Shown here in pieces: positions 21,896-30,134 of a stretch of 64,000 bases of DNA (position 1 is the first letter of the stretch; each line of letters opens with the position of its first letter). The notes below the pieces were generated by a model, which was given only the letters and a program-made list of their open reading frames with translations, searched no databases and had not been told where the DNA came from. This stretch comes from Candidatus Schekmanbacteria bacterium (GTDB lineage Bacteria > Schekmanbacteria > GWA2-38-11 > J061). Location: assembly GCA_016219965.1 (NCBI GenBank), contig JACRJM010000014.1:1-64000 (forward strand), given 5' to 3'. Made by a program: the position numbers and the translations under genes.

Positions 21896-22957
21896 CTATG
21901 TATTACAAGCACTTAAGGCTACTACGTTATCAGCCTTTTTCTGTCTTGTGACCAAATTGTGACTACTTTTTTCAAAAACACCATCTTCAAGACACTCTAC
22001 AGCACGCCTCTGACTGTCTGCGCTTGAGTGTGCATAGCGCATTGTCATTTGAATCGTCGAATGTCCCAAAAGTTGTTGCACTGTTACTAAATCAACTCCA
22101 GCAGCCACCAAACGAGTAGCAAATAGATGCCGGAGATCATGGAACCTAACCTTCGGAACACCTGACCGCTTAATAGCTGACTCAAACGCAGTGCGCACTG
22201 ACTTAATCGGGTTGTCTCCACTGCCAAAGACAAATTTATTGCTATTACCTTTTAACGAGGAAAACAAATTTGTCAATGTCATATTCATCGGTATTTTTCT
22301 ACTCCTGCCGCTCTTTGACTGAATGACAGTAATAGTCTTTTTCTGCATATCAACACACTGCCATTCAAGACTAAGTATTTCATTCAGTCTCATGCCTGAA
22401 TGAACGGCTGTAAGGATAATCGGCTTTATATGCGGATTACACTCAGCTAACAACCGTTCAAGCTCATCAGGTGTCAGAATCTTCTCAATAATGTTATCTT
22501 CTCTGAAAAACTTGATTTCAACAACCGGGTTGCCTTCTGCCTTGTGCCATTTCACGGCCTTGTTGAATAGGGATTTCAGGCAAGTCAAATCTCTGTTTGT
22601 TGAGGCTCCTGTCACTTGTTTTTTACGAAAAAGTTTAAACTTCTCGACGTCAAACGCTGAAATGTCACAAAGCCTTTTCCCCTGAAAGAAAGGAATAAGC
22701 ACTTTAAGAGAAGTCGCATCCCTTGATGGACACTTCTTGTTAGCTCGGCAATAAGCCAAATATTCCTCTGCAAACTCAGCAAACAAGGAACTTCTCTTTG
22801 CTTTATGAAAAGAAAACTTCCCCTGTATCGCTTCGCTTTTCCTGACAGCCAAAGCTCTGCTTGCCTCTCCTTTGCTGCTTCCGACACACTCCCTAACCCT
22901 ACAGCCGTTTACATAAAAATCAATATACCACTTACCTTTTCTACAATAGACACTCAT
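21896..22957 (-). CDS. int: Tyrosine integrase of the tRNA-Ser element
   Basis: A 353-residue phage-type tyrosine recombinase. An N-terminal arm-binding and SAM-like core (SSLFAEFAEEYLAYCRANKK...) precedes the catalytic domain. The catalytic residues are visible: R190 in HSGMRLNEILSLEW, K215 in the beta-hairpin, H273 and R276 in HDLRHLFATRL, H299 in LLGHST and Y308 in MRYAHSS. All are intact, so it should be active. It lies next to the left attachment repeat with the stop (TAG) only 3 bases from the tRNA. A decayed copy of its middle part lies at 34577-34685. Confidence 0.93.
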   Translation of the reverse strand: MSVYCRKGKWYIDFYVNGCRVRECVGSSKGEASRALAVRKSEAIQGKFSFHKAKRSSLFAEFAEEYLAYCRANKKCPSRDATSLKVLIPFFQGKRLCDISAFDVEKFKLFRKKQVTGASTNRDLTCLKSLFNKAVKWHKAEGNPVVEIKFFREDNIIEKILTPDELERLLAECNPHIKPIILTAVHSGMRLNEILSLEWQCVDMQKKTITVIQSKSGRSRKIPMNMTLTNLFSSLKGNSNKFVFGSGDNPIKSVRTAFESAIKRSGVPKVRFHDLRHLFATRLVAAGVDLVTVQQLLGHSTIQMTMRYAHSSADSQRRAVECLEDGVFEKSSHNLVTRQKKADNVVALSACNT

Positions 22958-26363: not shown

Positions 26364-27923
26364 ATGAAGTCTAACAAGATAAGTCTATTTGTTTCTCTAT
26401 TATTTATTTCCTCTCTAAGCTTTTTTATTCCTTGTAATACATCAGCTATTGAACCTCAGATTTCAGCAGGTCATGCACATAGTGTAGCTCTTAAATCAAA
26501 TGGAACATTATGGGCATGGGGTAGAAACGAAAGTGGTCAATTAGGAGACGGATTATCTGGTTTTGCAGTATACAGAGAGTATCCTGCCCAAGTTGGCACT
26601 GATACAGACTGGGTTTCTATTGCCGCAGGTAAAAGTCACACCGCGGCATTAAAAACAGATGGTACATGGTGGCAATGGGGAGGTCTAACAGACAAAATAG
26701 AGACAATTCCTACAAAAGTTGGGACTGATACTAATTGGAGTAAAATTGACGCTGGCTTTATTTTCACAATTGCGTTGAAATCAGATGGCACGCTTTGGGC
26801 TTGGGGTGTTAACGGTTTTGGTCAATTAGGTGATGGTACAACAAACAAAAAAACCTCGCCAATTCAAATAGGAACGGATAATAAATGGAGTTCTGTCTCA
26901 ACTGGCGATTCCCATACTATTGCTTTAAAATCAGATGGGACACTTTGGGCATGGGGGAAAAATGAAAATGCTGAATTAGGCGATGGCACAACAATTAATA
27001 AACGTTCCCCTGTTCAAATTGGAAGTGATACTAATTGGAGTAAAATTTCAGCTGGAAATAATTTCACTATTGCTCTTAAATCAAATGGAACATTATGGGC
27101 TTGGGGTAGCAATTCTTTTGGCCAATTGGGAGATGGAACATCTGGATATGTAGTAAGAGAGTATCCTGCCCAAGTTGGCACTGATACAGACTGGGTTTCT
27201 ATTGCCGCAGGTGACACTCATAGTCTCGCTTTAAAATCAGATGGAACACTTTGGGCATGGGGCAGTAACTTATTTATTGGAACGATTAATATTTCAACAA
27301 CTCCAATAAGAGTAGACGTAAATAATGATTGGGTATCTTTTGACGCAGGGGGTTCCCATCATATAGCATTACAATCAGATGGTTCCTTATGGGCTTGGGG
27401 ATATAATGCTTACGGAGAAGTAGGAGACGGAACAACTACAATCAGAGACGAACCTGTTGAGATCTTTCCTGCTTCTGACTTCGATAGCGATGGGATACCT
27501 GATACAATCGATAACTGCCCTAATGATTACAACCCAGACCAAGCAGATTACAATAACAATGGGCAAGGTGATGTCTGTGATCCACCTCCGACACTAATTA
27601 CTCTCTCCTCATTCACAGCTAATCAATCTAACAAGAAAGTTGTACTCAAATGGGAGACCGGAACTGAACTCGACAACCTCGGTTTTAATATTCGGCGTTC
27701 AGAGTCTATTGATAGCAAGTATATACAGATTAACAAGAAGCTCATCAAGGCAAAAGGAAGCAGCACTAAAGGTGCGTCATATACTTTCAAGGATAAGAAG
27801 ATTGAGGCAGGAAAGACCTACTGGTATAAGCTTGAGGATATAGACAGCAATACAGGCAATACACAGCATGGCCCTGTTGAGGTTCCAGTTGCAGCAAAGA
27901 AATCTAAGACAAAAAAAAATTAA
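26364..27923 (+). CDS. Secreted RCC1-repeat protein with thrombospondin type 3 repeat and fibronectin-like tail
   Basis: A 519-residue exported protein. A signal peptide (~1-29) precedes about seven RCC1 (regulator of chromosome condensation) repeats with cores like HTIALKSDGTLWAWGKNENA and QLGDGTT, which should close a seven-bladed propeller. Around residues 370-405 lies a calcium-binding thrombospondin type 3 segment (DSDGIPDTIDNCPNDYNPDQ). The last ~110 residues (LKWETGTELDNLGFNIRR... YWYKLEDIDSNTG) resemble a fibronectin III-like domain common in secreted bacterial proteins. It is element cargo. The small peptide gene begins 14 bases after its stop. GGGGG precedes the ATG. Confidence 0.88.
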   Translation: MKSNKISLFVSLLFISSLSFFIPCNTSAIEPQISAGHAHSVALKSNGTLWAWGRNESGQLGDGLSGFAVYREYPAQVGTDTDWVSIAAGKSHTAALKTDGTWWQWGGLTDKIETIPTKVGTDTNWSKIDAGFIFTIALKSDGTLWAWGVNGFGQLGDGTTNKKTSPIQIGTDNKWSSVSTGDSHTIALKSDGTLWAWGKNENAELGDGTTINKRSPVQIGSDTNWSKISAGNNFTIALKSNGTLWAWGSNSFGQLGDGTSGYVVREYPAQVGTDTDWVSIAAGDTHSLALKSDGTLWAWGSNLFIGTINISTTPIRVDVNNDWVSFDAGGSHHIALQSDGSLWAWGYNAYGEVGDGTTTIRDEPVEIFPASDFDSDGIPDTIDNCPNDYNPDQADYNNNGQGDVCDPPPTLITLSSFTANQSNKKVVLKWETGTELDNLGFNIRRSESIDSKYIQINKKLIKAKGSSTKGASYTFKDKKIEAGKTYWYKLEDIDSNTGNTQHGPVEVPVAAKKSKTKKN

Positions 27924-27937
27924 ATCGGGCGATTATT

Positions 27938-28093
27938 ATGGATAACCCAAAGAAGGCTTACAAGAAACCAACTATCAAGCAAGTGAAGCTTGTTCCTGAA
28001 GAAGCAGTCCTCGGCGTGTGCAAGAGCGATACAGGAGCAGGGCCTAATCAGTCAACGTGTATAATACCGCAGTGCTTTAATCCGGGGAGCTGA
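27938..28093 (+). CDS. 51-residue RiPP-precursor-like peptide
   Basis: An intact small frame, ATG 27938 to TGA 28093. The N-terminal half is a Lys-rich leader-like part, MDNPKKAYKKPTIKQVKLVP, with a Tyr-x-x-Pro-x-Ile motif (Y8, P11, I13) reminiscent of the YxxPxL motif that RRE (PqqD-like) domains bind in lasso-peptide leaders. The second half, EEAVLGVCKSDTGAGPNQST then CIIPQCFNPGS, is Gly/Ser/Thr/Cys-rich with three cysteines, like a core peptide. It follows the RCC1 gene by 14 bases, so they are probably co-transcribed. No radical-SAM maturase, cyclase or protease of a RiPP pathway is visible nearby. The call is inference from architecture. Confidence 0.55.
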   Translation: MDNPKKAYKKPTIKQVKLVPEEAVLGVCKSDTGAGPNQSTCIIPQCFNPGS

Positions 28094-28473
28094 GGGCAGG
28101 AATAAAGGACACTCAAGCCCTCTATTCCATTCAAGGCAAGCCATATACTTTTGGTATGAAAAAAGTCTTGCTGTCGGGGCTTAAAACAACGCATTTGTGC
28201 TGTGGTGGAGATGATGGCGAGTTTCAGCAGAATTCCCTATGTAGTTTCAAACTAATTCCACAATCAGTTTCAGTAGAATTCCTCACTTTGTAAAAATATC
28301 ATTCTACTTGCCTCTAAAACATCTTGCTAACTTATATCTTAAAGTTAACCAGCTTATATTCTCTTAATTAAAATCAAATAGTTACTTACTCCATAAGAAA
28401 ACACCCTTGAATATTTTGTTAAGTTATATATATTATATTATAAATACTTAACTAATTATTGGGTAAATATAAT
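28094..28473. other. Gene-free stretch between the peptide and the second recombinase
   Basis: No further gene is seen in these 380 bases. They contain three 23-bp imperfect repeats (28220-28288, listed separately) followed by a very AT-rich segment before the recombinase start, where its promoter should lie. Confidence 0.4.
28220..28288. repeat. Three tandem 23-bp imperfect repeats
   Basis: Units start at 28220, 28243 and 28266, each beginning AGTTTCA and containing AATTCC at the same offset (AGTTTCAGCAGAATTCC, AGTTTCAAACTAATTCC, AGTTTCAGTAGAATTCC). The exact 23-base spacing, about two helical turns, suggests protein-binding sites such as recombinase arm sites, operators or iterons. Confidence 0.6.
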
Positions 28474-29070
28474 ATGAAAAAATTTCAAAACAGAAACCAT
28501 CCAAAGAAGGGTCAACAGATAAAGGTGGAGCCTATTAAGGATTTGAAGGACATTAAGGCAATTAAAAAGCTGCTTGCTGATAACCCAAGAGACTATGCAC
28601 TGTTCACGATCGGAATAAATACTAATCTTAGAGCAAGCGATCTGTTAAGGCTTAAAGCCGGACAGGTGCGTGGCCTGAAACCAATGGATGAAATTGAAGT
28701 CAAAGAGAAGAAGACTGCCAAGATAAGGAGGATTACTTTAAATGAAACCTGTATAAAAGCCATAGAAAGGCTGTTGGCATCTGTAAAATATCTTGACACC
28801 GATTACCTGTTTAAGTCGCAGCGTGGAGCGGTGCTGACAATTCCCTCGGTTCACAGGTTAGTCAAGCAGTGGACAGGTACTATCAACTTAAAAGGCAACT
28901 ATGGAAGCCATACATTGAGGAAGACTTTTGGCTACCATCAGCGAGTAACATTCGGGGTGGGACTCCCAGAGCTTATGGAATGCTTTAACCACAGCACGCA
29001 GAGGCAGACCCAGACTTATCTTTGCATTCAGCCTGAAGAAATAAGAAGTGTGTATGCTAACCAATTATAA
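28474..29070 (+). CDS. Short tyrosine recombinase (second recombinase of the element)
   Basis: About 198 residues from ATG 28474 (TTG at 28459 is the alternative). Catalytic-domain motifs are present: R53 in GINTNLRASDLLRL, a KEKKTAKIRRI hairpin lysine, H146 and R149 in SHTLRKTFGYH, H173 in CFNHST and Y182 in TYLCI. It lacks the usual N-terminal arm- and core-binding domains, beginning only about 50 residues before the first arginine, like compact integrases of some elements. It may act with int or on another site. The small-terminase-like gene follows after 23 bases. Confidence 0.82.
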   Translation: MKKFQNRNHPKKGQQIKVEPIKDLKDIKAIKKLLADNPRDYALFTIGINTNLRASDLLRLKAGQVRGLKPMDEIEVKEKKTAKIRRITLNETCIKAIERLLASVKYLDTDYLFKSQRGAVLTIPSVHRLVKQWTGTINLKGNYGSHTLRKTFGYHQRVTFGVGLPELMECFNHSTQRQTQTYLCIQPEEIRSVYANQL

Positions 29071-29093: not shown

Positions 29094-29483
29094 ATGGCTA
29101 ATGGAATAAAAGAACTTTCAGTCAGAGACCGATTGCTAATAATAGGAATGATTAAAGGCTTATCAGCTTCAGAAGCTGCAAGGCGTGCAGGATATGCTGA
29201 AAGCACAGTTCGGAAACAGATAAGTCGTATCGTAGGCAAAAGTAGTGTCCAAGACGCCTTAGACCAGTCTTTAGGGGATAAAAACGTCACTTTTTACGAC
29301 TTAGTGGCCATCATTAAAGAGGGCCTTGATGCAAAAAAAACGATTGCAGTTAGACTGATTGATTCTGAAGATTCATCAGGACATCCGAGAGGAAAGAAGA
29401 AAAGAGTTTTTGTTGAAATACCAGATCATAGGATAAGGTTAAAATTTGCTAAAATTACTCTTACACTCTTGGGATTACCTTGA
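29094..29483 (+). CDS. Small-terminase-like HTH protein
   Basis: A 129-residue protein. SVRDRLLIIGMIKGLSASEAARRAGYAESTVRKQISRI is the N-terminal HTH typical of phage small terminase subunits. It is followed by a helical middle (TFYDLVAIIKEGLDAKKTI) and a basic end, also in keeping with that family. Small terminases recognise phage DNA for packaging. No large subunit or structural gene is present, so it may instead be a regulator or help the element use another phage's packaging machinery, as satellites do. The fold call is fair; the role is inferred. Confidence 0.65.
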   Translation: MANGIKELSVRDRLLIIGMIKGLSASEAARRAGYAESTVRKQISRIVGKSSVQDALDQSLGDKNVTFYDLVAIIKEGLDAKKTIAVRLIDSEDSSGHPRGKKKRVFVEIPDHRIRLKFAKITLTLLGLP

Positions 29484-30134
29484 AGCTTTGAGCAGATAAA
29501 AAACTCGATAGCTACTTTCCATGATCTCTTAGTATAAATGTCAGAAAAATGCACCTAAACTTCCTTTTCTTTTTCCGGGTAAGGCATAACTATGGTTCAA
29601 AGTCAAAACTCGTGTTCTGATGTTGAAAAACTATCTTTTTGTGCCGTGGTGGACGGGAAATTTGAAGGGTAGGCAGAACAGGAATCCTTTTGCAAGAGTC
29701 TCTGCTCATCTTTCTCAACGATAATTTGCCAAAGTCCCCCTGTTTGAGTATCGAGAAGATATTGGTCTTTTCTAAACTCTGAAACCTGTCCAAAAACTTA
29801 CCTCACATTAGGGGTTGCCAAGACTTTCTGTTGTGGTGGTTTCACTTCAAATGGATGAAACAATAATAATGATATGAAAAACAATAAAGAAAATATGTTT
29901 GATGTTATGAAAATTTACTCTTTTTTCACGGCACAAATGAGGGGGTTTTAGGCTTTTAAACATGAATTCTCAATCTTACCCATAGTTCCCCTTGCCTTGA
30001 ACGAAATAGATGGGTTAAGTATCTTTCATGCTTGCCCTCAACTCCCCGGATTAAAGCACTGGGGGATGATGCAGACTTATTTGGTGTCCACTATTTTCAA
30101 CTTATCTCAGGGAAAAACAAAAACCAGAAAACAA
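29484..30134. other. 650-base stretch without a recognisable gene
   Basis: I see only short frames (all under 70 codons) with no ribosome-binding site or known motif. A GTGCCGTG word near 29640 and its inverse CACGGCAC near 29928 form a distant inverted repeat. The stretch may be decayed sequence or non-coding. It lies downstream of both the terminase-like gene and the convergent FGE-fold gene. Confidence 0.4.

Follow-up and report, generated by a model that had tools for sequence, protein, structure and literature searches.

In lasso systems and in those for linear polyphosphorylated peptides (LPP), it is established that an RRE binds a [Y/W]xxPx leader motif (PMC13381572, PMC10368454). The LPP loci (Popov et al. 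2026, PMC13381572) combine a discrete RRE with an HprK-like kinase, a signal peptidase of the SipW/archaeal type, an NTP transferase and an ABC exporter, and often lie near polysaccharide loci; the leader peptidase LppS, with the residues S29/H68/D93, has been shown to depend on the RRE (PMC13381572). As described, these systems have no radical SAM enzyme and are found in Bacillota only, and their precursors, encoded in cis, carry the leader YxxPxVLxHQxIxFETxxS, phosphates on Ser3 of the core and a variable C-terminus. The phosphorylated lasso peptides (paeninodin, pseudomycoidin and bsf) have a [Y/W]xxPx leader, a PqqD-like B1 protein and an HprK-like kinase, the target of which in paeninodin and its relatives is the C-terminal Ser; an NTP transferase is present in some (PMC8498205, PMC10368454). 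PqqD proteins are paired with radical SAM/SPASM enzymes in the SynChlorMet (Scm), HPr-rel-A and GeoRSP systems (NCBIfam TIGR04248-04251, 04302, 04303, 04352, 04353), of which Scm and HPr-rel-A also include an HprK-like protein, and the sactipeptide and ranthipeptide maturases AlbA, PapB and StsB belong to the radical SAM/SPASM enzymes and have precursors that contain Cys as their substrates. In the prochlorosins, many precursor genes lie away from one modifying enzyme.

Our analysis concerns a 51-codon gene at positions 27938-28093 (plus strand) of a 64,000-nucleotide stretch of DNA, the window (C14:1-64000), from a Candidatus Schekmanbacteria genome of 3.58 Mb in 18 contigs (G000). We consider it likely, at a probability of about 0.8, that this gene encodes a RiPP precursor which is matured in trans by an operon at 131 kb on contig C4; the substrate pairing, the chemistry, the order of steps and the function are inferred. 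A preliminary description made from the sequence alone had proposed a RiPP precursor, and this reading is supported, while a modified product has not been shown and there are no transcript, protein or mass data.

The 51-residue peptide, MDNPKKAYKKPTIKQVKLVPEEAVLGVCKSDTGAGPNQSTCIIPQCFNPGS, has a leader of approximately residues 1-26, with the predicted RRE-binding motif YKKPTI and the stretch LVPEEAVL, followed by C28-K29, C41, C46 and a terminal G50-S51. On translation, the preliminary description held for the gene length, the Lys-rich start, the YxxPxI motif, PEEAVLG and the three Cys, and mildly for a 'Gly-rich' core. It was also correct that the gene directly follows one for an exported propeller protein, with a gap of 14 bp after the stop codon, and that no maturase is nearby, as own-genome searches placed no rSAM or PqqD match in C14:1-64000. 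Its assignment of the gene to a mobile element is plausible from two Phage_integrase genes (21896-22957 and 28459-29070), but the majority of the other copies are found in different parts of the genome. The peptide matched no NCBIfam or Pfam model even at E 10, tblastn against plasmids gave no match, and no signal peptide is apparent in its sequence. An inverted repeat of 83 nt (82%), with a left arm at 28058-28140 that holds the 3' end of the peptide gene and a right arm at 29991-30073, flanks a small integrase gene (28459-29070) as well as an HTH/terminase-small-subunit-like gene (29094-29483); it is possible that it marks an element boundary or is the relic of a second, inverted copy. A decayed fragment of a further peptide-gene copy lies at 30041-30082 on the minus strand (VCIIPQCFNPGS).

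The host genome contains eight intact, scattered copies of the gene, with 84-100% protein identity to the window copy, together with truncated copies (C6:27570 and C14:107695) and, besides the fragment in the window, another at C6:13257. Synonymous sites are near saturation in most pairs of these eight copies, with a pooled pS of 0.68 against a pN of 0.07 and an overall dN/dS of about 0.04; the leader portion has a dN/dS of 0.10, and in the core portion (pS 0.77 versus pN 0.03) the Cys-rich half is nearly invariant. The low dN/dS despite near-saturated synonymous sites identifies the peptide as an old, strongly constrained coding family and not a DNA repeat; it is a genuine coding gene under purifying selection. 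A recognizable ribosome-binding site lies just upstream of most copies, and is weaker for the window copy. The multiple copies, the decayed fragments and the inverted repeat of the 3' end beside integrase genes could suggest that the repeats are mobile or regulatory elements acting at the DNA level, in which the open reading frame is incidental. The codon-level constraint already refutes this, the DNA flanks of the copies cannot be aligned as a common element and the same protein is present across phyla, so this explanation is all but excluded; the selection data and the non-alignable flanks also led us to reject chance.

The peptide is also present in genomes of the same order; in the sister genomes G001-G003 it has the near-identical core CKNDxGAGPNQSQCLIPQCFNxGS, and the peptide loci of G003 match contigs of Candidatus Schekmanbacteria GWA2_38_11. 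A profile from the within-genome alignment retrieved nothing, while one from a wider alignment retrieved cross-phylum members: in a profile search of genome contigs the leader K[YW]xxPx[ILC]xxVxLxPEEAVLxxCK recurs outside Schekmanbacteria, in Nitrospirota, Aminicenantes, a deltaproteobacterium assigned to Myxococcota, a genome assigned to Bdellovibrio (Bdellovibrionota) and further genomes, and the family thus spans at least five bacterial groups. The existence of this family and the conservation of motifs are shown. Across phyla the tails vary, mostly retaining only the plan C-K ... C ... C ... Ser/Thr-end, and some loci (L056, L063 and L071) each encode two precursors with differing tails. 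Ser or Thr is the last residue in 24 of 25 non-Schekmanbacteria peptides, a count which includes the Portnoybacteria peptide of L064 and in which some sequences are related and not all independent, compared with 16% of background small ORFs; intact Schekmanbacteria copies end in Gly-Ser, save one in Gly-Arg (L030). A lack of homologues with a conserved leader and a variable core would have refuted the preliminary description, and across phyla such homologues exist. A variable core was not found within the Schekmanbacteria lineage, where the core is fixed, which had not been foreseen. Three weak profile matches, L077-L079 (E 2e-4 to 1e-3), do not appear to be linked members; homologues of the cassette proteins are absent in L077 and none were seen by eye in L078-L079.

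Outside Schekmanbacteria the peptide is syntenic with maturation genes. A PqqD protein (the RRE), a radical SAM/SPASM enzyme and an HprK-like kinase lie near it in 20 of 22 leader-bearing loci, a count that leaves out the weak matches L077-L079 and L064, a 3-kb contig uninformative on neighbors. The exceptions are L056, with an rSAM fragment and a kinase at the contig edge, and L080, with a kinase only; the G047 peptide has a kinase and no rSAM within approximately 9 kb. A SipW-type S26 peptidase is present in most linked loci, subsets of them repeatedly include NTP_transf_5, an ABC-2 exporter, a UPF0489 protein or an exosortase-type ATPase, and several loci adjoin apparent polysaccharide export genes, as read by eye. 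The UPF0489 family protein occurs in several radical SAM/PqqD loci (L057, L059, L065 and L124). Of the enzymes with which co-occurrence had been suggested, radical SAM and PqqD were confirmed in the 20 loci and ATP-grasp was not seen. The family has the genetic features of a radical SAM-type RiPP, with a short precursor made up of a conserved leader and a separate core, and with a modifying enzyme and recognition element linked to it, in the host only in trans; that its product is modified is inferred.

In the host, genes for rSAM, PqqD, kinase and S26 peptidase stand in a row once only, at G000:C4:131.3-134.1 kb, with no precursor alongside, and none of these enzymes adjoins any of the host's peptide copies; the same precursor-less operon is present in G001 and G002. 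In the own-genome search for rSAM matches, the C4 enzyme was found at 48% identity (E 3e-118), and in the rSAM tree it falls in a supported clade (96/93) with 19 peptide-linked rSAMs; deeper forks of this tree are weakly supported. Its CxxxCxxC and SPASM cysteines are kept. In the kinase alignment H158, G173, GxGKS and Asp197 are conserved, matching the motif needed in the lasso kinase BsfK (PMC10368454), with DE in host kinases where most have DD; the predicted model (pLDDT 92.5) matches the PEPCK/HprK fold in the PDB with modest TM-scores. Ser38/His77/Asp93 of the S26 peptidase, a relative of LppS, are invariant in the 13 proteins aligned. A second locus at C15:366-369 kb encodes NTP_transf_5 beside an ABC exporter, the permease of which is 69% identical to that adjoining the G001 operon; the NTP_transf_5 protein is just 27% identical to one clustered in G001. 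G003, a genome that is 70% complete, has the peptide and no clear maturase. The existence of the trans operon and its phylogenetic placement are thus shown, while the correspondence of orphan precursors and orphan cassette is inferred, the substrate pairing resting on phylogeny and leader homology. The preliminary description had left open whether enzymes act in trans or the peptide is a new class, and had proposed searching the host for orphan maturases; that search was positive, the evidence favors action in trans, and 'new class' held only in part, for an uncatalogued variant of known RiPP types. The orphan precursor now has a concrete candidate maturase in the same genome, and a single maturation operon serving many identical-core precursors beside exported proteins would be missed by cluster-based mining. 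Directly upstream of the operon lies a gene for an exported S8 subtilase with CARDB domains (L120:6256-9285), part of which has a close homologue at L017:5533, near another peptide copy; as a candidate leader peptidase it was set aside in favor of S26, since its homologues do not recur in linked loci.

The host has three further cassettes of PqqD, radical SAM and HprK-like genes (C14:93-96 kb, C15:232-234 kb and C4:210-216 kb), and one of these could instead mature the peptide; the C4:210 kb cassette also encodes an exported protein with a distant version of the C-terminal domain found in the peptide's neighbors. We regard this as very unlikely. The rSAMs of all three lie outside the peptide-linked clade, though on long branches, a different candidate precursor is encoded in cis in the C4:210 kb cassette (L140:7736, KYVQPEVITYTNDDVIKHLGPAQACSTTPC...), and the C15:232 kb cassette possibly has one as well (L139:7817). 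The C4:210 kb locus (L140:7443-16691; G000:C4:210.4-219.7 kb) holds, in this order, genes for PqqD, a candidate precursor (KYVQPEVITYTNDDVIKHLGPAQACSTTPCTVSPSGSGF), an exported protein, a radical SAM enzyme, an HprK-like protein, a second exported protein and S26; of the other two (L139:7795-11480 and L138:7751-10517), one has a gene resembling NTP transferases and possibly a Tat-like precursor, and the other a Transglut_core3 protein.

Of the described systems, LPP and paeninodin-type lasso tailoring come closest. The peptide-linked loci share with LPP all the components listed above, the YxxPx leader, the variable C-terminus and the frequent proximity to polysaccharide loci. The combination of SpI-type peptidase, RRE and HprK-like kinase is present, with NTP transferase and exporter in some loci only; the LPP leader is not, as only its YxxPx part is common, and neither is linearity without another cyclizing enzyme, as the radical SAM/SPASM enzyme is a constant member. 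The leader here is ...VxLxPEEAVLxxCK, the three-Cys core ends in Ser, the phyla differ and in Schekmanbacteria the precursors are in trans. With the phosphorylated lasso peptides the loci have in common the leader, the PqqD-like protein and the kinase active-site motif; the C-terminal Ser and the intact-motif HprK-like kinase that mark PadeK-type products, phosphorylated at a C-terminal Ser, are both there, the phosphorylation itself being inferred. Since the leader motif and the tailoring proteins (PqqD B1, kinase and NTP transferase) resemble those of the paeninodin and bsf clusters (PMC10368454, PMC8498205), and a Transglut_core3 protein is encoded at C14:93.8 kb, the product could be a lasso peptide. 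This is also very unlikely: the linked loci carry a radical SAM enzyme in the position expected of a lasso cyclase, no B2 protease or Asn-synthetase-like cyclase was recognized in ORF listings read by eye without a cyclase HMM, the core differs and the Transglut_core3 gene is part of another cassette of the host. The cassette proteins scored far under the curated cut-offs of the Scm, HPr-rel-A and GeoRSP models (for example ScmE 82/400, ScmD 24/100, ScmC 16/125) and of those for sactipeptide and ranthipeptide maturases, and no NCBIfam model fits above cut-off. Prochlorosin cores vary widely and are modified by a different enzyme class, whereas one core is common to all eight host copies. The exact gene set was not found in the literature searched, in which subscription journals and preprints were only partly covered. 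These comparisons suggest a little-described kind of modified peptide, a variant of known RiPP types which connects RiPPs of the radical SAM type with the tailoring kit of the LPP/paeninodin phosphopeptides; its product structure and role are inferred only.

For maturation in trans by the C4:131k operon we propose a model in which the discrete PqqD-type RRE binds the YxxPxI motif of the leader and the radical SAM/SPASM enzyme modifies the three-Cys core, CKSDTGAGPNQSTCIIPQCFNPGS, probably by Cys-based cross-links, which is a natural guess. Cys-to-carbon thioethers of the sactipeptide/ranthipeptide type are possible, inferred from the three conserved Cys and the SPASM cysteines alone. The HprK-like kinase would phosphorylate a Ser, most likely the conserved C-terminal one, because paeninodin-type kinases act there (PMC8498205); this target is uncertain, as the phosphorylated Ser is internal in the LPP and Bsf systems (LPP S3, BsfA S3). 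The SipW-like S26 protease would remove the leader by cleavage close to EEA|VL or a little further on, after which the phosphate may receive a group from the NTP_transf_5 protein and the ABC-2 transporter may export the product; the first four functions would be supplied by the C4 operon and the last by the C15 locus. These predictions are easily testable in E. coli.

The gene upstream of the window copy (26364-27923, plus strand) encodes an exported RCC1-type beta-propeller with a thrombospondin-3 repeat and a C-terminal FN3-like domain with a Lys-rich tail (27573-27917, plus strand; PTLITLSSF...GKTYWYKLEDIDS...KKSKTKK). All eight host copies adjoin same-strand genes for exported proteins that end in this domain, the partners being RCC1, SBBP-like and LVIVD-like propellers (the last two by eye). 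The 17 closest genome-wide matches of the domain all occur where the peptide or a remnant of it is encoded, and ten distant ones lie elsewhere; the domain model was built from peptide loci, which makes the ranking partly circular but does not affect the absence of other close copies. The distances of peptide and neighboring domain are correlated (Mantel r 0.50, p ~0.01, n = 8), and the same neighbor is found beside the G002 copy and one G003 copy and not beside the G001 copies. Because the eight precursor genes adjoin propeller-type proteins sharing one domain, we propose that peptide and partner are probably co-produced, with a site of action at the cell surface or matrix; a shared task there is suggested and not proven. 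The strict conservation favors a lasting structural or surface role over an antibiotic arms race, an argument which bears on what phosphorylated RiPPs near polysaccharide loci do. The fixed core, the tight coupling to exported genes and the distance from the enzymes are also what would be expected if the peptide were now unmodified, a short accessory protein or chaperone of its neighbors that retains an ancestral RiPP leader. This is again very unlikely, as the peptide preserves the leader, the three Cys and the C-terminal Ser exactly like its maturase-linked relatives and shows no apparent signal peptide, and as the genome still has an intact cassette with no other precursor alongside. Returning to a modified peptide, a bolder reading, which we think unlikely as a whole, is of a distinct radical-SAM branch of the LPP/paeninodin group, in which a phosphorylated, possibly sugar-bearing Cys-linked peptide would be joined to or assemble on the C-terminal domain of its neighbors or extracellular polysaccharide; if true, surface proteins throughout the genome, each paired with a precursor gene of its own, would be decorated by one central operon. 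At L016:1429-16331 (G000:C3:43-58 kb), seven tandem genes encode exported proteins, all with the FN3-like, Lys-tailed domain, and two copies of the peptide gene lie among them.
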